Shown here: positions 15,522 to 25,364 of the stretch, piece after piece
How positions within the stretch are numbered: the first letter of the stretch is position 1
Layout: each line of letters starts with the position of its first letter
Source of the DNA: Gammaproteobacteria bacterium
Lineage (GTDB): Bacteria; Pseudomonadota; Gammaproteobacteria; JAJDYQ01
Assembly (NCBI GenBank): GCA_028289815.1
Contig: JAPYNQ010000049.1
Coordinates: 1 to 37,500, forward strand
DNA length: 37,500 bases
Direction: 5' to 3'
Notes under the pieces: model-generated
The model's database searches: none
Seen by the model: the letters and a program-made list of their open reading frames with translations, nothing else
What the model was told of the DNA's origin: nothing
Program-made: the position numbers and the translations under genes

Positions 15522-16645
15522 CTAAAAAGCATCCGTACCCTCTGCCAAATTCAATAAATCGGGAAAAGCATACATCCCCGCACGCCGTCCCCCGCCTTTT
15601 CGTATTGGCTTTATAATTCCGGCATTGATCAGCTCCGAGAGCAAACGTCTTGCGGTAGCAGGGGAGATACTCGCATGCTTGATGAAGTCGGTGGACTTAA
15701 AAATAGGCCTTTCGAAGATCCAGTCGAGGACACGAATCGCATACTGAGAACGTGACACTGTGGTGACCTTGGCCTTCATATCGTCATATAAAGCCAGAAT
15801 ATCAGTAGCTTTAGCCTGATTAAGCTCTGCCTGTTCTTTAATCGCTCTGAGGAAAAAAACACTCCACTGTGTCCAGTCACCGTTAGCAGAGACAGCAAGC
15901 AGGCGATCATAGTATTCTTCGCGGTTGGCCTCAAAGAAGGCTGATATATAAAACATGGGACCCCTGATGAGCTTTCGTTGCCACAAAAAAAGTGGAACGA
16001 TTATTCGTCCCAGACGCCCATTACCATCTAAAAACGGATGTAAAGCCTCAAATTCAGCATGAATAATTCCGAGCTGGACCAGCAGATCGGGTTCATCAGC
16101 ATGAATATATTTCTCAAACGCCGACATGGCATCAGGAAGTTTATCCGCACCAATAGGTGAAAATCGCGCCGTTTCGATGGTGCAGCCGTGAGGACCAATC
16201 CAGTTAGGAGTTTTTCGATATTCGCCTGGATTTTTATTCACGCCACGCACACCATCCATCAGTATCCGATGAGTTTTACGTATTACTCGCTGACCCAACG
16301 GCAGTTTTGCAAGCATTTTTGCGGCTTGTCTTACTGATTTCCGATAATTAAGTATCTCGTGAATATCTGCCTTATGTTCCGCTGCAAATCCAATCGTATC
16401 ATTTTCGCCTTGGGCCTCGTATTGCAGCACCTCACTCATAGTGGCCTGCGTGCCTTCAATACGGGAAGACAATACCGCCTCCTGTGTCGTTAAGGGCCCT
16501 AGTAACACCGACGCATTAGGAATAGCGGCAAGCGTACCATCGTAGCGAGCGACCGCAGCACTCTTGCCGGGCCAAGTAACGAAATAAGTTGAGACCAATC
16601 AATATTGACAGGAGGAAACTGGCCAATGTGATATTGAATTGCCAT
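15522..16645 (-). CDS. Fic-domain AMPylase with wHTH; 5' end apparently frameshifted
   Basis: Fic enzymes transfer AMP or similar groups to proteins. The catalytic motif is HPFLDGNGRLGR, and the N-terminal self-inhibitory motif SSRIEG, fitting (S/T)xxxE(G/N), is present. A C-terminal winged helix (ISPATARRLLSELINAGI) suggests DNA binding. The continuous frame covers 15522-16598 and opens with a TTG that has no ribosome-binding site, reading LVSTYFVTWP before GKSAAVARYDG. In the adjacent frame an ATG at 16645 reads MAIQYHIGQFPPVNIDWSQL then ISLLGP, which matches the usual family N-terminus. Joining the two needs one missing base in GGCCCGGC near 16570. The gene is therefore either mildly broken or carries a sequencing error; the catalytic domain is intact. 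Confidence 0.85.
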
Positions 16646-16742: not shown

Positions 16743-17978
16743 TTATACATGTCTCTTACTCAACCCCAGGCCATTGATCAGCAGTGGCATGGTGGTCGCC
16801 TGAATGAATATGGTAAAAATGACAACGCCGTAGGCAATGGATTGGATCGTCCACCAGTATGGCAGTTCTATCGGTAATGACAGGGCTAAGGCCAAGGTTA
16901 CTGCACCACGAATATTTCCCCAGTACATCACAGCCCTGTATTTCAGATCAATCGGGGTCACGCCCGGTACATAGTTCAACAGCGGTATTACACCCATAAT
17001 GCTGACAAGTCTGGCGACCATTGACGCTCCAATTCCCATGAGTATCGCAAGCCATTGGTCCGTGAACATGACGATCTGGATGGTAACCCCTGAAATCAGA
17101 AACAGCATGGCATTCGCCACATAGGCTTTATATTCCCATAATTCGTGCATGAAGCCGTACTGTTGTTTTTCCAGCATATTTCGGCTGGCATGACCCAGCA
17201 GCAGCCCGACAACCAAGACCGACATCACCCCCGAAACATGTAAAAGCCCCTCCGCAAGGATGAAAGATATATATGCCGATATCAGGCTGACCACACCGCG
17301 TGTGATGACATTTTTAATCAACGGCAGCAGGAGAAAAACCAGGCCGCCTAAAATACCGCCGACCAACATACCACCGAAGAATGTCTTAAAAAAAGCATAG
17401 ATGGCATCTGCAATACCGGTTGTACCATCGCTCTGCGTTGCGATAGCGATGAGCAGGGTGAATAATACAATGGCGGTTGCATCATTAAACAGGCTTTCAC
17501 CATCAGCAAGGATGGAAAGCCGTTCCGGTACACCCAGTTTTTTGAACAGTGCCAGTATAGCCGCAGGATCTGTTGCTGACAGCAAGGCACCGGACAGCAG
17601 GGCCGCAACCCACGGAAAGCCGTCAGGATAACCGATACCATAATACAGCAGTGCGGCGATGATGGCCGTTGACAGCAACATCAGAGGGATAGCCAGAAAC
17701 AAAACAGGAATGATGTTTTTTATGAGCGAACGCAGGTTGAGATTGAATGCCGCTTCAAAAATCAGTACGGGCAGAAAAACAAAGAAGATCAGGCCATGAA
17801 AATTATCCCAGCGTATGCCGGTATCGACCGAAAACATCACCAGGATTTCTGATACGACAAAGCCGATGAGCAATAACGCCGCAGTAAACGGCAGGTGAAT
17901 TTTCTCCGCCAGCGGTTCAATAGCAATGGCCAGCAGCAGCATACCCATAAATAGCAGGATGATGTGCTGTATGGTCAT
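16743..17978 (-). CDS. CPA1-family Na+/H+ (cation/proton) antiporter
   Basis: The 411-residue protein is hydrophobic throughout, with about 12 membrane spans. It has the Na_H_Exchanger pattern of the CPA1 family. The ion-binding ND-type site is seen in ADGESLFNDATAIVLFTLL, and other family marks are SGALLSATDPAAILALF and the later YWGNIRGAVTLALALSLP. It would exchange sodium or another monovalent cation for protons across the inner membrane. It lacks the long cytoplasmic C-terminal regulatory domain of NhaP-type exchangers. The gene stands alone, with about 175 bases upstream and about 100 bases to the fic 5' end. Confidence 0.93.
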   Translation of the reverse strand: MTIQHIILLFMGMLLLAIAIEPLAEKIHLPFTAALLLIGFVVSEILVMFSVDTGIRWDNFHGLIFFVFLPVLIFEAAFNLNLRSLIKNIIPVLFLAIPLMLLSTAIIAALLYYGIGYPDGFPWVAALLSGALLSATDPAAILALFKKLGVPERLSILADGESLFNDATAIVLFTLLIAIATQSDGTTGIADAIYAFFKTFFGGMLVGGILGGLVFLLLPLIKNVITRGVVSLISAYISFILAEGLLHVSGVMSVLVVGLLLGHASRNMLEKQQYGFMHELWEYKAYVANAMLFLISGVTIQIVMFTDQWLAILMGIGASMVARLVSIMGVIPLLNYVPGVTPIDLKYRAVMYWGNIRGAVTLALALSLPIELPYWWTIQSIAYGVVIFTIFIQATTMPLLINGLGLSKRHV

Positions 17979-18154
17979 ATGTGCAAACTATCTATTGACG
18001 AAACTGATATGCAATTCAGTAGTCGGTGACGACTTGCTTACTTGCACCGATATAGAAAAGTGCCAGCGACATGATTAATTATGCAGGCCATGTCGGCCAG
18101 ATTCTGTAGTTTGGTAAACAATCCAATCATTTTTTCTCAATATAAATATCCATC

Positions 18155-18547
18155 TCAATTATTTTCTGAGGATTGTTGCCTGACTGTTTCACCAATAGCC
18201 GCATCTTTGGTCATTGCCTGTATTATGTTGACTAGTTCATAGCCGCGGCTTCCGTAGTTAGAGGCAAGCCAGGCATTACCCTTGAATGCAGGCACTAACC
18301 AAAGTACAAAATAACCCACCGACCCCACAAATAAGGATATCCCCTGCCCATCGCTCCATGTAAAGATTATCGCAATAGCCCAAAGAACAAACCAAAGAAT
18401 AGCCTTTCCCCAGAGTTTGCATACCAACATCCAAGCTATTGATCCGATGGTGATTATCATCCCTAAAAAGAATACAGGCCAGTTAACACCAACTTTTACC
18501 GCCTCTAAACCAAAAACCGGATGTTTATAAACTTGAAACGTTTTCAT
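18155..18547 (-). CDS. Small DUF2628-like membrane protein
   Basis: This 130-residue protein starts MKTFQVYKHPVFGLEAVKVG and has three hydrophobic spans (about residues 23-45, 49-66 and 70-88). A soluble tail contains GYELVNIIQA. The arrangement, with a polar N-terminus and a WPVFFLGMI entry into the first span, fits the DUF2628 group of small inner-membrane proteins of unknown function. It sits about 70 bases downstream of the glutamate-synthase-like gene on the same strand and might be read through from that operon. The family assignment is by eye. Confidence 0.7.
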   Translation of the reverse strand: MKTFQVYKHPVFGLEAVKVGVNWPVFFLGMIITIGSIAWMLVCKLWGKAILWFVLWAIAIIFTWSDGQGISLFVGSVGYFVLWLVPAFKGNAWLASNYGSRGYELVNIIQAMTKDAAIGETVRQQSSENN

Positions 18548-18617: not shown

Positions 18618-20138
18618 TTATGATGCCTTATCCGCACCGGCTGTTTCCGGCAAAGGATGAAGTTCATTCAAAGGTACAGACAGGCTGTTCTGACCGACAA
18701 TTCTTGCATGGTAGCGCCTGAGTTCTCTTGGTTCTTTTACTCCACAGGAGTGGCCAATCATACCGACTTCATACACCATGTTTTTGGCATAATTGGCGAC
18801 CCGTTCGGCTTTTTCGGTGACTACCAGCCCGCTCTGCATTTTTTTGTTGTGCGTGGTAATGCCGGTCGGGCAGGTATTTTTATTGCATTGCAATGCCTGA
18901 ATACAGCCCAGAGCAAACATGAAGCCTCTGGCACTCACACAAAAATCGGCCCCAAGGCACAGCGCCCAGGCAACATCGGCGGGTGTCACCAGTTTGCCGG
19001 AGGCGAATACCTTTATCCGGTCGCGCAGATCATGCTCAATCAGCTTGTTCACCAATAACGGCAACCCTTCGCGCAATGGCAAACCCATATCATCAATGAG
19101 TGGCATGGGTGCCGCACCGGTTCCGCCGTCTGCACTATCAACCGTAATAAAATCAGGGGCACTCTCCTTGCCTCGCTGATTGATGACATCGAATAACTCA
19201 TCCAGCCATCCATAGGCGCCCATCACCGCCTTGAATCCGACCGGTTTGCCTGTCACCCGGCGAATGCGATCAATCATGTCCAGCAGGTCAGCATTGGCAT
19301 TGATGTCTGTATGGCGATTCGGGCTGATGGCATCTTCACCGACCTTGATACCCCGTATTCGGGCAATCTCCTCAGTCACCTTGGCCCCCGGCAGGATGCC
19401 ACCCTTGCCGGGCTTTGCTCCCTGGGACAGCTTGATTTCAAACATCCTGACCTGTTCATGTGCGGCTATTTCACTTAACTTGTCATCATTAAGATTACCT
19501 TCCAGATCGCGCACACCATTCTTTGCCGTACCGATCTGGAAAACGATATCGCCCCCTCCTTCAAGGTGATAGGGCGACAGGCCACCCTCTCCGGTATTCA
19601 TCCATATACCAGCCTTGCGAGCACCTTTTGACAAAGCCAGTATCGCAGGCTTGGATATCGCCCCATAACTCATGCCCGAAATACCAAACAGTGCGCTGGT
19701 GGTCCAAGGCTTTTTGCAGTATGGTCCCAAGGTCACCGACGACGGATCAACGGCATCTTTTCCCAAGGTAGGAAACGGGCAGTTCACAAACAAAACCGTG
19801 CCCGGTGGTTTCAGGTCACGGGTAGAACCAAACGCTACAGTATTATTCAGATTCTTCGCCGCACGGTACGCCCATGAGCGCTGCGCACGGTTAAATGGCA
19901 GTTCTTCCCGGTCCATGGCAAAGAAATACTGTCGGAAAAACTCACCGATATGCTCGAACAGATAGCGGAAATGTCCGATAACCGGATAGTTGCGCCGGAT
20001 GGCATGCTGGGTTTGTGTAACATCAACAATGTAGGTAATGATAATCACCGCAACAAAAAGACCTACTACAAAGATAAAACTTACAGTAAGAACTTCCAGG
20101 GTGATATATATAAAACTATTCTGTAGTGTTTCTACCAT
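18618..20138 (-). CDS. FMN-binding glutamate synthase family protein
   Basis: The 506-residue protein has one N-terminal membrane anchor (about residues 13-37) and a large domain like the central/FMN part of glutamate synthase. Visible marks are SALFGISGMSYGAISKPAI, GGISPY-like GEGGLSPYHL, KPGKGGILPG, SADGGTGAAPMPL and the cysteine cluster CNKNTCPTGITTH that would hold an iron-sulfur cluster. It has neither the glutaminase domain nor the GltD partner, so it is not a complete glutamate synthase; the natural substrate is unknown. The ATG used has GGAG seven bases upstream. The frame also opens two codons earlier with TTG. It lies 24 bases after the aldehyde dehydrogenase gene. Confidence 0.9.
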   Translation of the reverse strand: MVETLQNSFIYITLEVLTVSFIFVVGLFVAVIIITYIVDVTQTQHAIRRNYPVIGHFRYLFEHIGEFFRQYFFAMDREELPFNRAQRSWAYRAAKNLNNTVAFGSTRDLKPPGTVLFVNCPFPTLGKDAVDPSSVTLGPYCKKPWTTSALFGISGMSYGAISKPAILALSKGARKAGIWMNTGEGGLSPYHLEGGGDIVFQIGTAKNGVRDLEGNLNDDKLSEIAAHEQVRMFEIKLSQGAKPGKGGILPGAKVTEEIARIRGIKVGEDAISPNRHTDINANADLLDMIDRIRRVTGKPVGFKAVMGAYGWLDELFDVINQRGKESAPDFITVDSADGGTGAAPMPLIDDMGLPLREGLPLLVNKLIEHDLRDRIKVFASGKLVTPADVAWALCLGADFCVSARGFMFALGCIQALQCNKNTCPTGITTHNKKMQSGLVVTEKAERVANYAKNMVYEVGMIGHSCGVKEPRELRRYHARIVGQNSLSVPLNELHPLPETAGADKAS

Positions 20139-20162
20139 AATCAATCTCCGATTATCCTTTAT

Positions 20163-21599
20163 TTACAGGGCTTTAGAGCGTATGACCATCATTTTTTCCA
20201 TCGTCATATCTTCATAGGTATAGCGTATGCCACCTACTCCGTAACCTGATTGTTTAAGACCAGCAAATGGCATCCAGTCAACCCGAAATGCCGTATGCTC
20301 ATTTATCATAACAGCCGCAGCATCCAGATTTTTATAGGCATGCAGGGCCGTATCCATATCTCGTGTATAGATCGAAGCCTGGAAAGCATACGGTAGACTG
20401 TTCGCCTGCCGGATTGCCTCATCAATATCATCATACGCATAGACACAGATAACGGGGCCAAATATTTCATTACGGCTGACCTTTGTATCACCAGGCGGGT
20501 TCAACAATACCGTTGCAGGATAACATGTATCTGAAACCGGCTTGCCACCGCCCAGCAGCCGGGCACCATCATTCACGGCCTGATCGACCCACTCATGTAC
20601 TCTGGTCACTTCACGAGAACGAATGAGGGGGCCGATATCTGTGTCTTCAGACACCGGGTCACCAACCTGCATGGCATCGCCTAATTCTGCCAGATGTTTC
20701 GCAATTTCTTCAGCCAGCCGCGACGGCGCATAAACGCGCTGTACCGATACACAGACTTGCCCGGCATGATAAAAACCGGCTTTGGCAATCATCGGCAGAT
20801 TCTCATCCAGGTCTGCGTCTTCTGCCAGAATGACCGGCGCGGCACCACCATGTTCAAGTGCGCAACGCGCACCCGGTGCCAGTTTGGAATGCAGCATCCA
20901 ACCTACCTTGGCACTGCCGATAAAGCTGAAAAATCCGACACGCCCATCGGTCACCAGCTGCTCCGCAATATTGAGATCATCAACAACACAAGCCTGACAC
21001 CATTTTTCGGGCAGGCCCGCTTCTCTGAGTATTGAAACAAACCGCATACATGACAATGGCGTATCCTCAGCCGGCTTGACAATCACCGGGCAACCGGCAG
21101 CAATCGCCGGCCCCACCTGATGTATGATTAAGTTTAATGGGTGGTTAAATGCGCTGACGGCGACTACAACACCAATGGGTTCACGGTGCGTAAATGCCAA
21201 CCGTCCCGCCGATGCAGGGTTAATATCCATCGGAATTTCCCGCCCTGACTCATTGCGCAATAGCTCAGCACAATTCCTGACACCATCAATCGCCCGCGCC
21301 ACCTCAATACGCGAATCAAGCAGTGGTTTACCTCCCTCCCGGGCCGCTTCAGTGGCCAGGTATTCAGACCGGTCTTGCATGATCTCAGCTGCCTTGTTCA
21401 GCACTCCAACACGTTCGGCTCCGCTCAGCCACCGGCTACGGTCACGGTAAAGTGCGAAAGCAGCTGATAACGCAGTCTCCACAGCCCCGCTGTCTGCTAT
21501 GCCGACTGAACCAATCCGGGAACCGTCAAAGGGCGAGGTAACGGCAAGCTGCTTTTCAGCCTCACAGCCTGCAATCATTAGTGGATAATCTTCAGCCAT
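20163..21599 (-). CDS. NAD(P)-dependent aldehyde dehydrogenase
   Basis: This 478-residue enzyme belongs to the ALDH superfamily, which oxidises aldehydes to acids with NAD(P). The catalytic Glu lies in ALEHGGAAPVIL and the catalytic Cys in AGQVCVSVQRVYA. The nucleotide-binding segment FIGSAKVGWML and the late NEIFGPVICVYAY are in order. The start is MAEDYPLMIAG, with GGAG five bases upstream; a longer frame from 21659 overlaps the upstream gene and adds residues without family support. It sits between acetolactate synthase and the glutamate-synthase-like gene with gaps of about 35 and 25 bases, so one mRNA is likely. The substrate is not known; the neighbours suggest a small keto- or semialdehyde. 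Confidence 0.93.
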   Translation of the reverse strand: MAEDYPLMIAGCEAEKQLAVTSPFDGSRIGSVGIADSGAVETALSAAFALYRDRSRWLSGAERVGVLNKAAEIMQDRSEYLATEAAREGGKPLLDSRIEVARAIDGVRNCAELLRNESGREIPMDINPASAGRLAFTHREPIGVVVAVSAFNHPLNLIIHQVGPAIAAGCPVIVKPAEDTPLSCMRFVSILREAGLPEKWCQACVVDDLNIAEQLVTDGRVGFFSFIGSAKVGWMLHSKLAPGARCALEHGGAAPVILAEDADLDENLPMIAKAGFYHAGQVCVSVQRVYAPSRLAEEIAKHLAELGDAMQVGDPVSEDTDIGPLIRSREVTRVHEWVDQAVNDGARLLGGGKPVSDTCYPATVLLNPPGDTKVSRNEIFGPVICVYAYDDIDEAIRQANSLPYAFQASIYTRDMDTALHAYKNLDAAAVMINEHTAFRVDWMPFAGLKQSGYGVGGIRYTYEDMTMEKMMVIRSKAL

Positions 21600-21633
21600 A
21601 TTAGCTCCAGATGATATTAGGTGATCGTATCTG

Positions 21634-23268
21634 CTAAATCGGACAAACCAGCCCGCCAAGTTTTTCAGTCAGCTTCATATTTTCCTCGTAGTCAACAGCA
21701 CAGTCTACGACCACGACGGTGTTATCGTCTCGCGCACGCCGCAATGTCGGCAACAAATCCTGCGCAGATTCCACGCGGTAGCCCTTGGCACCAAAACTTT
21801 GCGCATACTTTACAAAGTCCGGATTGTTGAAATCTATATGGCTGGGCCGGCCAAAAGCCTTCATTTGGTGCCAGCGGATCAGACCATATTTTGAATCAGT
21901 CCAGACAAGAACGATAAAGGCCGTGCCAATACGCAGTGCGGTCTCGATTTCCTGGGAATTCATCATAAAGCCTGCATCACCGGTTACCGCAACCACGGTA
22001 CGTTCAGGATAATGCAGCTTGGCGGCGATAGCACCAGGGACGGCTATACCCATTGACGCAAAACCATTTGAGATAATGCAGGTATTCGGATATTCCCCCT
22101 GATACATGCGTGCCATCCACATCTTGTGTGCGCCAACATCACTGATGACGATGTCTTCCGATTTAAGTAATTGCCGCAAGTCCCACATGATCTTCTGTGG
22201 TTTGACGGGAAAGCCGGCGTCATTGGCATGTTCACCGGTCTCATCAAGAATAGTCTGACGCAGGGTCGTTGCCGGAAACGTATCACATGGCCTGGCACAC
22301 TCGCTGATAGCGTTCAACGCCTGAGCAATATCACCGATAACACCACATTCGACAATGTAATATTCATCAACCTCGGCAGCTGAAAAATCAATATGGACAA
22401 TTTTCGCCTGCTTGTTCCTGTTCCATAAATGCGGGTGGTACTCGACAATGTCGTAACCTACGCAGACGACAACATCGGCCCTGTCAAACCCGCAGGAAAT
22501 ATAATCGCTGGCCGCAAGCCCTACCGAACCGAGACAATGTCCATGCGAGAATGGAATGGAGCCCTTGGACATAAATGTTGTCGCCACCGGCAGATTAAGT
22601 CGCTCGGAAAACCTGACCAGCGCCTCATTGGCTTTACCTCGCACAACACCGTTACCGGCCATGACCAATGGAAAACGGGCAGAAGAAATAATATCAGCGG
22701 CCTGTTGCAACTTGTCTTCAGGCGGCATCGGGGCCTTTGCACTTTGTACCTTGAGCGGTTCCTTTCCCTCAACCGGCATACCCGCAATATTCTCGGGAAA
22801 ATCAATAAAACTGCCACCAGGCTTTTCTGCCTGCGCTACTTTGAAGGCCTTACGAACAACCTCAGGAATAATTTCCGGTTCGAGCATCTGGGTTGAGTAT
22901 TTCGATATGGGCTCAAACAGGTTAACAAGATCAAGTATCTGATGGCTTTCCTTGTGCAGCCGCGTTGTTGCGCCCTGACCGGCGATACCTAAAATCGGCG
23001 CATGGTCCATATTCGCATCAGCAAAACCGGTAATAAGGTTGGTCGCACCGGGGCCCAAAGTAGCCAGACAAACTCCCGCTCTGCCTGTCAGGCGGCCCTG
23101 CATGTCGGCCATGAAAGCCGCTCCCTGCTCATGGCGTGTCGTAACAAAGTTGATCGGGCTGTCAAGCAGAACATCCATCACAGCGATGTTTTCCTCACCC
23201 GGGATGCCAAAGATATACTCAACATCCTCATTTTCCAGACAGCGGACAAACAGTTCTGATCCCTTCAC
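21634..23268 (-). CDS. Acetolactate-synthase-type ThDP enzyme (large subunit only)
   Basis: The 544-residue protein is a thiamine-diphosphate enzyme of the acetolactate synthase family, which joins two pyruvates to form acetolactate and CO2. The three domains are present: an N-terminal PYR domain with the catalytic Glu in TTRHEQGAAFMADMQGRLTG, a central domain, and a C-terminal PP domain with VTGDAGFMMNSQEIETA. The Mg region reads VWTDSKYGLIRW instead of the NN of biosynthetic IlvB/IlvI, closer to catabolic, FAD-independent AlsS. No small regulatory subunit gene follows, which also favours a catabolic or atypical role. The start is GTG with AGGAG six bases upstream. Confidence 0.9.
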   Translation of the reverse strand: MKGSELFVRCLENEDVEYIFGIPGEENIAVMDVLLDSPINFVTTRHEQGAAFMADMQGRLTGRAGVCLATLGPGATNLITGFADANMDHAPILGIAGQGATTRLHKESHQILDLVNLFEPISKYSTQMLEPEIIPEVVRKAFKVAQAEKPGGSFIDFPENIAGMPVEGKEPLKVQSAKAPMPPEDKLQQAADIISSARFPLVMAGNGVVRGKANEALVRFSERLNLPVATTFMSKGSIPFSHGHCLGSVGLAASDYISCGFDRADVVVCVGYDIVEYHPHLWNRNKQAKIVHIDFSAAEVDEYYIVECGVIGDIAQALNAISECARPCDTFPATTLRQTILDETGEHANDAGFPVKPQKIMWDLRQLLKSEDIVISDVGAHKMWMARMYQGEYPNTCIISNGFASMGIAVPGAIAAKLHYPERTVVAVTGDAGFMMNSQEIETALRIGTAFIVLVWTDSKYGLIRWHQMKAFGRPSHIDFNNPDFVKYAQSFGAKGYRVESAQDLLPTLRRARDDNTVVVVDCAVDYEENMKLTEKLGGLVCPI

Positions 23269-23344: not shown

Positions 23345-24127
23345 TTATATTGAACTATCGGGAGACCATACTGTACCCAGTACAATGTCTTTTGCCCATA
23401 ATTGCCTTAACGTATCCATCCCGCCTGCAATAATGACCTCTGGCCGCGGATGTTCCAGTTCTTGCGCGATCTGCTCCAGTGCTCGTTCACCACTCAAACT
23501 CCGCTCTTCATTATCAAGCAACTCGAACAGTCGTGCAGTAACAGGATTTGCCTGTATAAAACCCACATCATCCTGATGATCACGATAAATGATAATCCAG
23601 GTTGGCTGGTCCGGCTTCGCGATCGGACGATAAGTACGACTAATCGCATGCACCGGCCATTCGTAGAAAAGCAGCCATGCCAGAGGAGAGATAACAATAG
23701 ATTCATGCATTAAATCGCCTTGGCGGTCAAATGATATATCGGTCAGACAGCCTCTGGATAACCGCAACGCGGTTTCCATCCATTCGTAGTGAGCCAATTC
23801 AAGGATAAAGGCAGGGTCATCGTCACTCCGAACAAATTCATTGCGTAAATAATGGACAAATTCCTCCGCCATTTCCGGAAAATGTGGAGTTTTGGCGCGG
23901 TGGCGCGAGAAATAGTCCCGCATAAGAAGGTGCCAGGCATCTTCATCATAGAGTGAGCGTAAAATCGGAAAGCCGCTTGCCATAAAGCCTTCCACATTAT
24001 TGTAGAACAGTTCGCGGTAAATCATCATGCGACGGTCTTCTATGCCCTGAGGCCCGAGGATGTTGCCCGGGTCACGGATATGCGCGGCAAAATCGTATTG
24101 TATCCGCTTGAAGCCCGGCAGTGACAC
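23345..24127 (-). CDS. hvfC: DUF2063 MNIO partner protein, HvfC/BufC type
   Basis: This 260-residue protein fits the HvfC/BufC group. It has an N-terminal DUF2063 domain (about residues 5-100: FAAHIRDPGNILGPQGIEDRRMMIYRELFYNNVEGFM and FPILRSLYDEDAWHLLMRDYFSRH). A C-terminal domain (about 115-255) shows LAHYEWMETALRLS and a winged-helix-like end. In characterised MNIO pathways this partner binds the precursor leader and forms a complex with the DUF692 oxidase. The gene begins with GTG two bases after the hvfB stop, so translation is probably coupled. It is the last gene of the hvfA-hvfB-hvfC run; no DoxX-type hvfD/E follows. Confidence 0.88.
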   Translation of the reverse strand: MSLPGFKRIQYDFAAHIRDPGNILGPQGIEDRRMMIYRELFYNNVEGFMASGFPILRSLYDEDAWHLLMRDYFSRHRAKTPHFPEMAEEFVHYLRNEFVRSDDDPAFILELAHYEWMETALRLSRGCLTDISFDRQGDLMHESIVISPLAWLLFYEWPVHAISRTYRPIAKPDQPTWIIIYRDHQDDVGFIQANPVTARLFELLDNEERSLSGERALEQIAQELEHPRPEVIIAGGMDTLRQLWAKDIVLGTVWSPDSSI

Positions 24128-24129
24128 AG

Positions 24130-24993
24130 CTAGGAAGCCTGTGCTTTTAGCATGCTATGAGAAGTACCACACTGATATTGGGCAATTCTGTCAACTTCAA
24201 TAAGCAACTCCTCTAGGGGAGGGATATTAAAATCGCGCTCCAGCAAGGTCGGAAACACACCAAACGTATCATAGGCAGTCCGTAATAAATTCCATACCGG
24301 CTCACAAACATCATCACCATGCGTATCCACACGCAGGTCTTGTGCTTCAATAAAATGCCCCGCGATATGGGCGTAGGCGATACGCTCTCCAGGCAGCGCC
24401 TTGAGGAACTCTTTCGCATCGTATCTGTGATTAATTGAGTTCACATAGATGTTGTTGATGTCGATATGCAAATCACAGTCGGCCTCCTCAAGAACCGCAT
24501 TTACAAATTCAATTTCTGACATCTCCTGCCCTGGTGCCGCATAGTAGGAAACATTTTCCATGGCTATACGACGCTCCAGAATATCCTGCACACGACGTAT
24601 GCGCTCAGCCACATAGTGTATAGCCTCTTCAGTAAACGGGATTGGCATCAAATCATATAAATGTCCACCATCCGAGCAGTAACTGAGGTGCTCGCTATAG
24701 CACAGAATGCCATGCTCCTCAAGAAAACTCTTTACCTCCCGGACAAGCTCGATATCAAGGGAAGATGGCGAACCAATTGAAAGGGATAAACCATGACAGA
24801 CAAAGTCATGCTGCTCCGTGAAAGATCGAAATTGCTTACCGGCCTTACCGCCGACTCTCATCCAGTTTTCCGGGGCAACTTCCATAAATGAAACACGCTC
24901 TGGAAAATCGGCTGCCAGCGAGTCCATCAAGGATCGCCGGAGACCCAAGCCTGCACCATATACGGGATAATCACGCACCTGAACATCATCCAT
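24130..24993 (-). CDS. hvfB: DUF692 multinuclear non-heme iron oxidase (MNIO), HvfB type
   Basis: The 287-residue protein is a DUF692 TIM-barrel enzyme. Family members (MbnB, TglH, HvfB, BufB) use two or three iron atoms to modify cysteines in RiPP precursors. Conserved segments seen in order are GAGLGLRRSLMDSL, FMEVAPENWM, CHGLSLSIGS (H67), YSEHLSYCSDGGHLYDLMPIP (H102), AMENVSYY (E146), DLHIDINNIYVNSINH (D178, H189), AYAHIAGHF (H209) and RVDTHGDDVCEPVW. These carry the His, Asp and Glu residues expected at a multi-iron site. It lies between the EGKCG precursor and the DUF2063 partner, the standard order, so it most likely acts on the EGKCG cysteines. Confidence 0.93.
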   Translation of the reverse strand: MDDVQVRDYPVYGAGLGLRRSLMDSLAADFPERVSFMEVAPENWMRVGGKAGKQFRSFTEQHDFVCHGLSLSIGSPSSLDIELVREVKSFLEEHGILCYSEHLSYCSDGGHLYDLMPIPFTEEAIHYVAERIRRVQDILERRIAMENVSYYAAPGQEMSEIEFVNAVLEEADCDLHIDINNIYVNSINHRYDAKEFLKALPGERIAYAHIAGHFIEAQDLRVDTHGDDVCEPVWNLLRTAYDTFGVFPTLLERDFNIPPLEELLIEVDRIAQYQCGTSHSMLKAQAS

Positions 24994-25034
24994 CGTCCCA
25001 TCCCATGAGATACTGTACAGGCAGTCGCTAGAGA

Positions 25035-25364
25035 CTACTTGTCACCACCGCACTTGCCTTCACCGCACTTGCCTTCACCTTCGGCTTTGTGGCCGCCGCA
25101 TTTACCCTCACCACACTTGCCTTCAGCACCAACCCTGGAATCGCCACATTTGCCTTCACCGCACTTGCCTTCGCCTCCGGCTTTGCGACCACCGCATTTA
25201 CCCTCACCACACTTGCCCTCCATTGTAACCTGATAACCTGATCCCAAATCCACCATACCGAACGGACTGACATCGGCTTGAGCAACAGGCATGGTTGCCA
25301 AAGATGCGGCTATAGCTGTTCCCATTGCAGCAGCAACAGGCTTCATCGACTTTTTTTCAGACAC
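25035..25364 (-). CDS. hvfA: EGKCG-repeat RiPP metallophore precursor, HvfA type
   Basis: The 109-residue precursor has a signal peptide (about residues 1-30, AAAMGTAIAASLATMPVAQA, likely cut after VAQA). A short mature leader follows (DVSPFGMVDLGSGYQVTM), then eight EGKCG motifs arranged as four EGKCGEGKCG doublets. Its eight cysteines are residues 52, 57, 68, 73, 84, 89, 100 and 105. In Haemophilus HvfA the same motif is converted by HvfB/HvfC to an oxazolone-thioamide form that binds copper, so a periplasmic or secreted copper-binding peptide is the expected product. The start is GTG with AGGAG seven bases upstream. hvfB begins 41 bases after the stop. The 178 bases upstream show no convincing promoter, though the locus has its own gap from the Aas-like gene. 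Confidence 0.92.
   Translation of the reverse strand: MSEKKSMKPVAAAMGTAIAASLATMPVAQADVSPFGMVDLGSGYQVTMEGKCGEGKCGGRKAGGEGKCGEGKCGDSRVGAEGKCGEGKCGGHKAEGEGKCGEGKCGGDK
25047..25220 (-). repeat. 48-base tandem repeat encoding EGKCG doublets
   Basis: Three full 48-base units and a final 30-base partial unit encode EGKCGEGKCG plus six-residue linkers (GRKAGG, DSRVGA, GHKAEG). Within each unit the pentapeptide is itself doubled, giving a 15-base inner period. The DNA is nearly identical across the EGKCG parts and more varied in the linkers, which points to growth by duplication under selection for the motif. Confidence 0.9.

Follow-up and report, generated by a model that had tools for sequence, protein, structure and literature searches.

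The genes hvfA, hvfB and hvfC, which lie in a window of 37,500 nucleotides of contig JAPYNQ010000049.1 (the whole stretch of gammaproteobacterial DNA analysed here; genome G000, 2.18 Mb, 97% complete), are a further intact example of an already published RiPP class, the Buf_EGKCG peptides or oxazolins, which their authors now call captophorins (PMC13097082). Some distance downstream stands a gene for a GltS-like flavoprotein, and genes of this family are a specific recurrent neighbour of HvfB-type MNIOs, far above chance, and not of the sister systems.

EGKCG precursors lose four hydrogens per cysteine, the group formed being 5-thiooxazole, and copper is bound by the peptides of the class (PMC13097082); the loss is known for fontiphorin, oxazolin and bulbicupramide (PMC13097082, PMC12538549), and about 2,000 Buf_EGKCG/oxazolin precursors have been listed (PMC12452194). 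Copper loading of the peptides is thought to be stochastic and aggregation-prone, and their physiological role is only partly established (PMC13097082). Since the class has been characterised in these homologues, hvfABC belongs to a known kind, whose 5-thiooxazole chemistry, export and copper role it would share by analogy. As a whole, an EGKCG-type captophorin cluster, with that chemistry, export and copper role included, is very probably the right reading of the operon, which is a clean addition to a very large class of copper-handling peptides. The features of the extended cluster are collected in Table 1.

Table 1. Genes and relics of the extended hvf cluster (positions in the window)
Feature	Position	Strand	Remarks
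hvfA, precursor, predicted to be exported (Sec signal peptide, 8 EGKCG)	25035..25364	-	NF050137 match
hvfB, MNIO (DUF692), peptide maturase by family	24130..24993	-	carries the tri-iron ligands and the residues of Lys-Cys-type specificity
hvfC, DUF2063/PME1 partner protein of the MNIO	23345..24127	-	NF050145; PDB 3DEE, E=4e-7
alsS-like acetolactate synthase large subunit (PRK08322 family)	21634..23268	-	recurrent neighbour
aldH, aldehyde dehydrogenase family	20163..21659	-	most of the relatives examined have it paired with alsS
GltS-like FMN-domain protein (PF01645)	18618..20144	-	N-terminal transmembrane helix, CX5CX4C motif
hvfX (DoxX-like), pseudogene relic	17993..18138	-	sister locus has an intact hvfX here
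Cation/proton antiporter (Na_H_Exchanger)	16743..17978	-	recurrent last gene of extended cluster

The hvfABC operon and its precursor

The three open reading frames are all intact and follow each other in the order of transcription hvfA-hvfB-hvfC, the first two being 41 bp apart and the last two only 2 bp. The tightly spaced operon of a preliminary description of this DNA is thus borne out, as is its exported precursor with eight EGKCG motifs, for which the motif count, a family match and a signal peptide read by eye all speak. HvfA has 109 residues and a GTG start codon with the ribosome-binding site AGGAG. Its N-terminus, in which basic residues at the start are followed by a hydrophobic segment and then by AQA-D, is typical of Sec signal peptides. 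After the signal peptide comes a conserved leader, SPFGMVDLGSGYQV, whose counterpart in relatives reads NPFxMxxLxSGYxVA. The core holds exactly eight EGKCG motifs, arranged as four EGKCGEGKCG pairs with a period of 16 residues, and no further cysteine; both the period and the eight motifs are kept in the sister species. The period was considered as a novelty and set aside, as the literature gives 17 residues and the spacing in relatives peaks at 15-17.

Among the NCBIfam models, HvfA passes that of the KCGExKCG HvfA domain, NF050137 (55 bits, cut-off 19.5), and stays below the cut-off of the full-length HvfA equivalog, NF050188 (50.7 bits against 95); a Pfam scan gave no match. Judged by sequence, it would be the same kind of precursor, though not a member of the full-length equivalog itself. 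Some 96 relative loci yielded 79 precursors that have three or more KCG motifs, nearly all of them directly upstream of HvfB, a layout that is far above chance.

The HvfB and HvfC proteins

HvfB reaches 444 bits with the NCBIfam model of its family (NF003818, cut-off 360) and 345.6 bits with PF05114, and its matches in the PDB are 3BWW, TglH and MbnB. HvfC scores 290 bits with NF050145 (cut-off 142), matches DUF2063 and NGO1945_C in Pfam, and has 3DEE as its match in the PDB. An AlphaFold model of HvfB, built from 44 sequences (pLDDT 88, pTM 0.87), has 3BWW as its best Foldseek match (E 4e-24; TM 0.79 by query, 0.89 by target), followed by iron-loaded TglHI and MbnB.

The iron ligands of VcMbnB are His55, His91, Glu135, Asp165, Asn168, His194, Asp209 and Glu238 (PMC8888699). 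Seven of these eight are identical in the alignment with HvfB (H102, E146, D178, N181, H209, D223 and E252), and so are His211 and Asp240, the latter at the position of the catalytic Asp (H225 and D254 in HvfB). His55 falls outside the alignment, and its likely counterpart is H67; this residue and all other mapped active-site residues are invariant across 44 homologues. Lys-Cys-type MNIOs are marked by two Arg residues and by a Phe after the catalytic Asp (PMC13097082), and HvfB carries these marks as R19, R20 and F255, the last following D254, whereas Arg-Ser and Asp-Thr stand at those positions in the second MNIO encoded by this genome. The assignment to the HvfABC-type MNIO systems, with a DUF692 enzyme whose His, Asp and Glu residues are where they were expected and with a DUF2063 partner, is confirmed by these cut-offs and residues and by the fold of the model.

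By analogy with the characterised homologues, HvfC, as a PME1 protein with a RiPP-recognition domain, would bind the leader of HvfA and offer the Lys-Cys motifs of this precursor to HvfB's iron cluster. With O2, HvfB would then oxidise each of the eight cysteines to a 5-thiooxazole, with the loss of four hydrogens each and of up to 32 per precursor. The modified HvfA is predicted to leave the cytoplasm via Sec and to lose its signal peptide, and the mature product would bind Cu(I) outside the cytoplasm and buffer excess copper, so that the copper handling proposed in the preliminary description still holds by analogy. The GltS-like flavoprotein encoded downstream, with HvfX as membrane partner in relatives, would probably be an accessory redox component of EGKCG-type systems.

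Comparison with known MNIO systems

The hvf operon of Haemophilus influenzae (oxazolin) has in common with the operon of the window the order hvfA-hvfB-hvfC, the signal peptide and the EGKCG repeats; it differs in its DoxX-like genes, which we take to be intact there, whereas hvfX of the window is decayed and had stood far downstream. The fon cluster of Fontimonas thermophila, which specifies fontiphorin, consists of the same three genes (EGKCG precursor, MNIO and PME1) and shows the same Arg-Arg and Asp-Phe pattern, but it has seven modified sites against the eight EGKCG motifs of HvfA, and the window adds the alsS-aldH-gltS-like genes and the hvfX relic downstream (PMC13097082). In the mmr cluster of Microbulbifer, which specifies bulbicupramide, three genes and paired-Cys EGKCG cassettes (5-8 Cys) are again found, with a loss of four hydrogens per cysteine and copper binding; DoxX goes unmentioned in the text of that paper, and it differs in that the flanking genes were judged not to be part of the biosynthesis (PMC12538549). 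Bufferin operons (BufA-BufB-BufC-DoxX) share the enzyme pair and the 5-thiooxazole chemistry but have a DUF2282-type precursor without EGKCG and an MNIO without the Arg-Arg and Phe marks, and no GltS-like gene was found near them. A bufferin identity was rejected, as HvfB scores 256 bits with the BufB model (cut-off 310) and HvfA lacks a Pfam match.

A methanobactin-like function, in which the product would be a peptide bearing oxazolone/thioamide groups, secreted and then re-imported to acquire copper, has on its side the common enzyme superfamily, with its fold and iron ligands, and the earlier assignment of such groups to oxazolin, which NCBIfam names still reflect. The oxazolin modification has since been revised to 5-thiooxazole, and NMR on alkylated homologues excludes oxazolone/thioamide (PMC13097082). 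Against the 444 bits of HvfB for its own family stand 37.5 for MbnB (cut-off 325), and its partner is a DUF2063/PME1 protein that gives no match to MbnC. The methanobactin leader has no signal peptide, whereas HvfA has both a Sec signal peptide and repeats, and the cluster showed neither an exporter gene nor one for a TonB-dependent receptor. A methanobactin identity was rejected on these scores and on the type of partner, and the function is considered highly improbable. Of the known systems to which the operon had been likened, MbnABC is more distantly related, and the group that it makes is a different one.

The hvfX relic and the genomic context

HvfX belongs to the DoxX family of membrane proteins. 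In the sister species G001 the gene is intact (L036:11117-11740; 228 bits with NF050144, cut-off 80), and in the window the first ~41 and the last ~85 nucleotides remain, some 500 bp being gone and internal stops being present. A 130-residue hydrophobic open reading frame between the gltS-like gene and the relic (18155-18547, minus strand) is unrelated to hvfX; it has no family match, and the sister species showed no such frame at this position. The DoxX-like genes had been described as missing, which is right for intact genes near hvfABC but overlooks both the relic and the one intact DoxX gene of the genome, in a second operon on another contig. Their absence had also been held to set this copy apart, and this did not stand. 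A DoxX gene lies within 2.5 kb on the same strand at 34 of the 53 relative loci with enough flank, and its absence, at the other 19, is therefore common; given that the three-gene fon and mmr clusters are functional as well, the lack of DoxX makes no difference in kind, and hvfX was here present before it decayed.

The second operon, on contig C13 at about 35850-38210 (L002:1166-3527), encodes a DUF2282 precursor, an MNIO, a DUF2063 protein and DoxX, and is a bufferin-type cluster. Its completeness, which might allow it to substitute, and the hvfX relic are what may be said for the view that the hvf cluster is decaying as a whole, with hvfABC kept by chance or for a partial function only. The three genes are nevertheless intact with every active-site residue present, the eight EGKCG motifs are all perfect, and the sister species keeps their period and number; general decay is accordingly judged unlikely, if less so than a methanobactin-like function, and the loss of hvfX could mean reduced function.

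A search of the whole genome for a copper-exporting P-type ATPase gave 23 bits at best (cut-off 397), with matches in all 14 control genomes. Because both sister species have such an ATPase, its absence may reflect an assembly gap; G013 and the single-contig genome G045 likewise gave no match over the cut-off. As none was found, peptide buffering may matter more in this genome.

A recurrent neighbourhood of hvfABC

No terminator-like site was seen between hvfC and alsS, and a promoter scan returned 5 sites against 4.3 expected. A search of genomes for the same neighbourhood showed that alsS-aldH-gltS-like-hvfX-antiporter recurs beside hvfABC, the order in G001 (L036) being hvfABC-alsS-aldH-gltS-like-hvfX-antiporter. 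The location, too, had been thought to set the copy apart, which is true of its Aas neighbour, seen only in this genus, and not of alsS and aldH, which other families of this class have there as well. In G002, the third species of this genus, alsS is reduced to a short fragment between hvfC and aldH (L037:1952-2218). A gene for a Fic-family protein (15522-16598, minus strand) lies near the end of the extended cluster of the window.

Among 274 genomes of Gammaproteobacteria, HvfB (E up to 1e-80) and AlsS (E up to 1e-150) occur together in 49, and in 7 of these the genes are within 3.2 kb, always on the same strand, where genome size predicts ~0.17 pairs within 4 kb by chance. This co-location is significant yet rarer than the link to the GltS-like gene, and alsS was set aside as the main functional link for that reason.

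In the same sample, an HvfB-type MNIO and a GltS-like gene are at most 8 kb apart in 23 of the 59 genomes that hold both (44 under a stricter GltS-like cut-off), always on the same strand, against 0.3-0.4 pairs expected if placement is independent; related genomes are not independent in this expectation, and the linked genomes span many families. The linked loci include L047, L152, L153, L156, L158 and L159, and at the 103 loci of other-type MNIOs no GltS-like gene was found within 8 kb among the strongest matches listed. The orders A-B-C-gltS-X, A-B-gltS-X-C, A-gltS-X-B-C and A-B-C-X-gltS were all seen, so that the gene sometimes lies inside hvfABC itself. That one and the same set of genes was reshuffled repeatedly speaks for a functional link.

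That hvfABC might be functionally unrelated to its neighbours, with alsS, aldH and the gltS-like gene as chance company, bears on the neighbourhood alone and leaves the identity of the operon untouched. In favour of this view, many genomes also have the GltS-like gene at a distance from hvf, the majority of hvf clusters are without it, and its linked copies do not form one clade: in a tree of 53 GltS-like proteins the label "linked" takes 11 changes in the most parsimonious reconstruction, of which at least 3 are forced by well-supported branches. Set against the 23 close pairs, their absence within 8 kb at the 103 other MNIO loci listed and the insertions into hvf clusters in several orders, chance company is unlikely, although it deserves more weight than either of the alternatives for the operon itself. 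In G138 (99% complete), a signal-peptide precursor with 12 KCG motifs (L177:4304-4750) adjoins gltS-like and hvfX genes, and no MNIO match was obtained anywhere in that genome.

A possible role of the GltS-like flavoprotein

The match of the GltS-like protein to glutamate synthase is confined to the FMN domain (PDB 1EA0, 2VDC), and the Pfam scan detected no glutaminase domain in the protein. Of 32 homologues, 31 have the N-terminal hydrophobic helix, and all carry the CX5CX4C motif, which in glutamate synthase binds a [3Fe-4S] cluster. The need of MNIOs for an external reductant has been stated to be unclear, ascorbate being of help (PMC13097082), and a membrane-bound flavin/iron-sulfur protein encoded next to an MNIO is therefore a candidate for that reductant; glutamate synthase goes unmentioned in the main text of both PMC12452194 and PMC13097082. 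That the membrane-anchored FMN/[3Fe-4S] protein forms, with the DoxX-like HvfX, a redox accessory dedicated to captophorin systems of the EGKCG type is a tentative proposal, about which doubt slightly outweighs confidence. As a hypothesis, the protein might be the physiological reductant that holds the iron cluster of the MNIO in the mixed-valent, active form; alternatively, it might manage the thiooxazole/copper product's redox state.

The association of a flavin/iron-sulfur enzyme with EGKCG-type MNIO clusters is of larger value than the operon itself and is the part that deserves follow-up, as it offers a concrete candidate for the cellular reductant of these iron enzymes, or for something else that the pathway requires.
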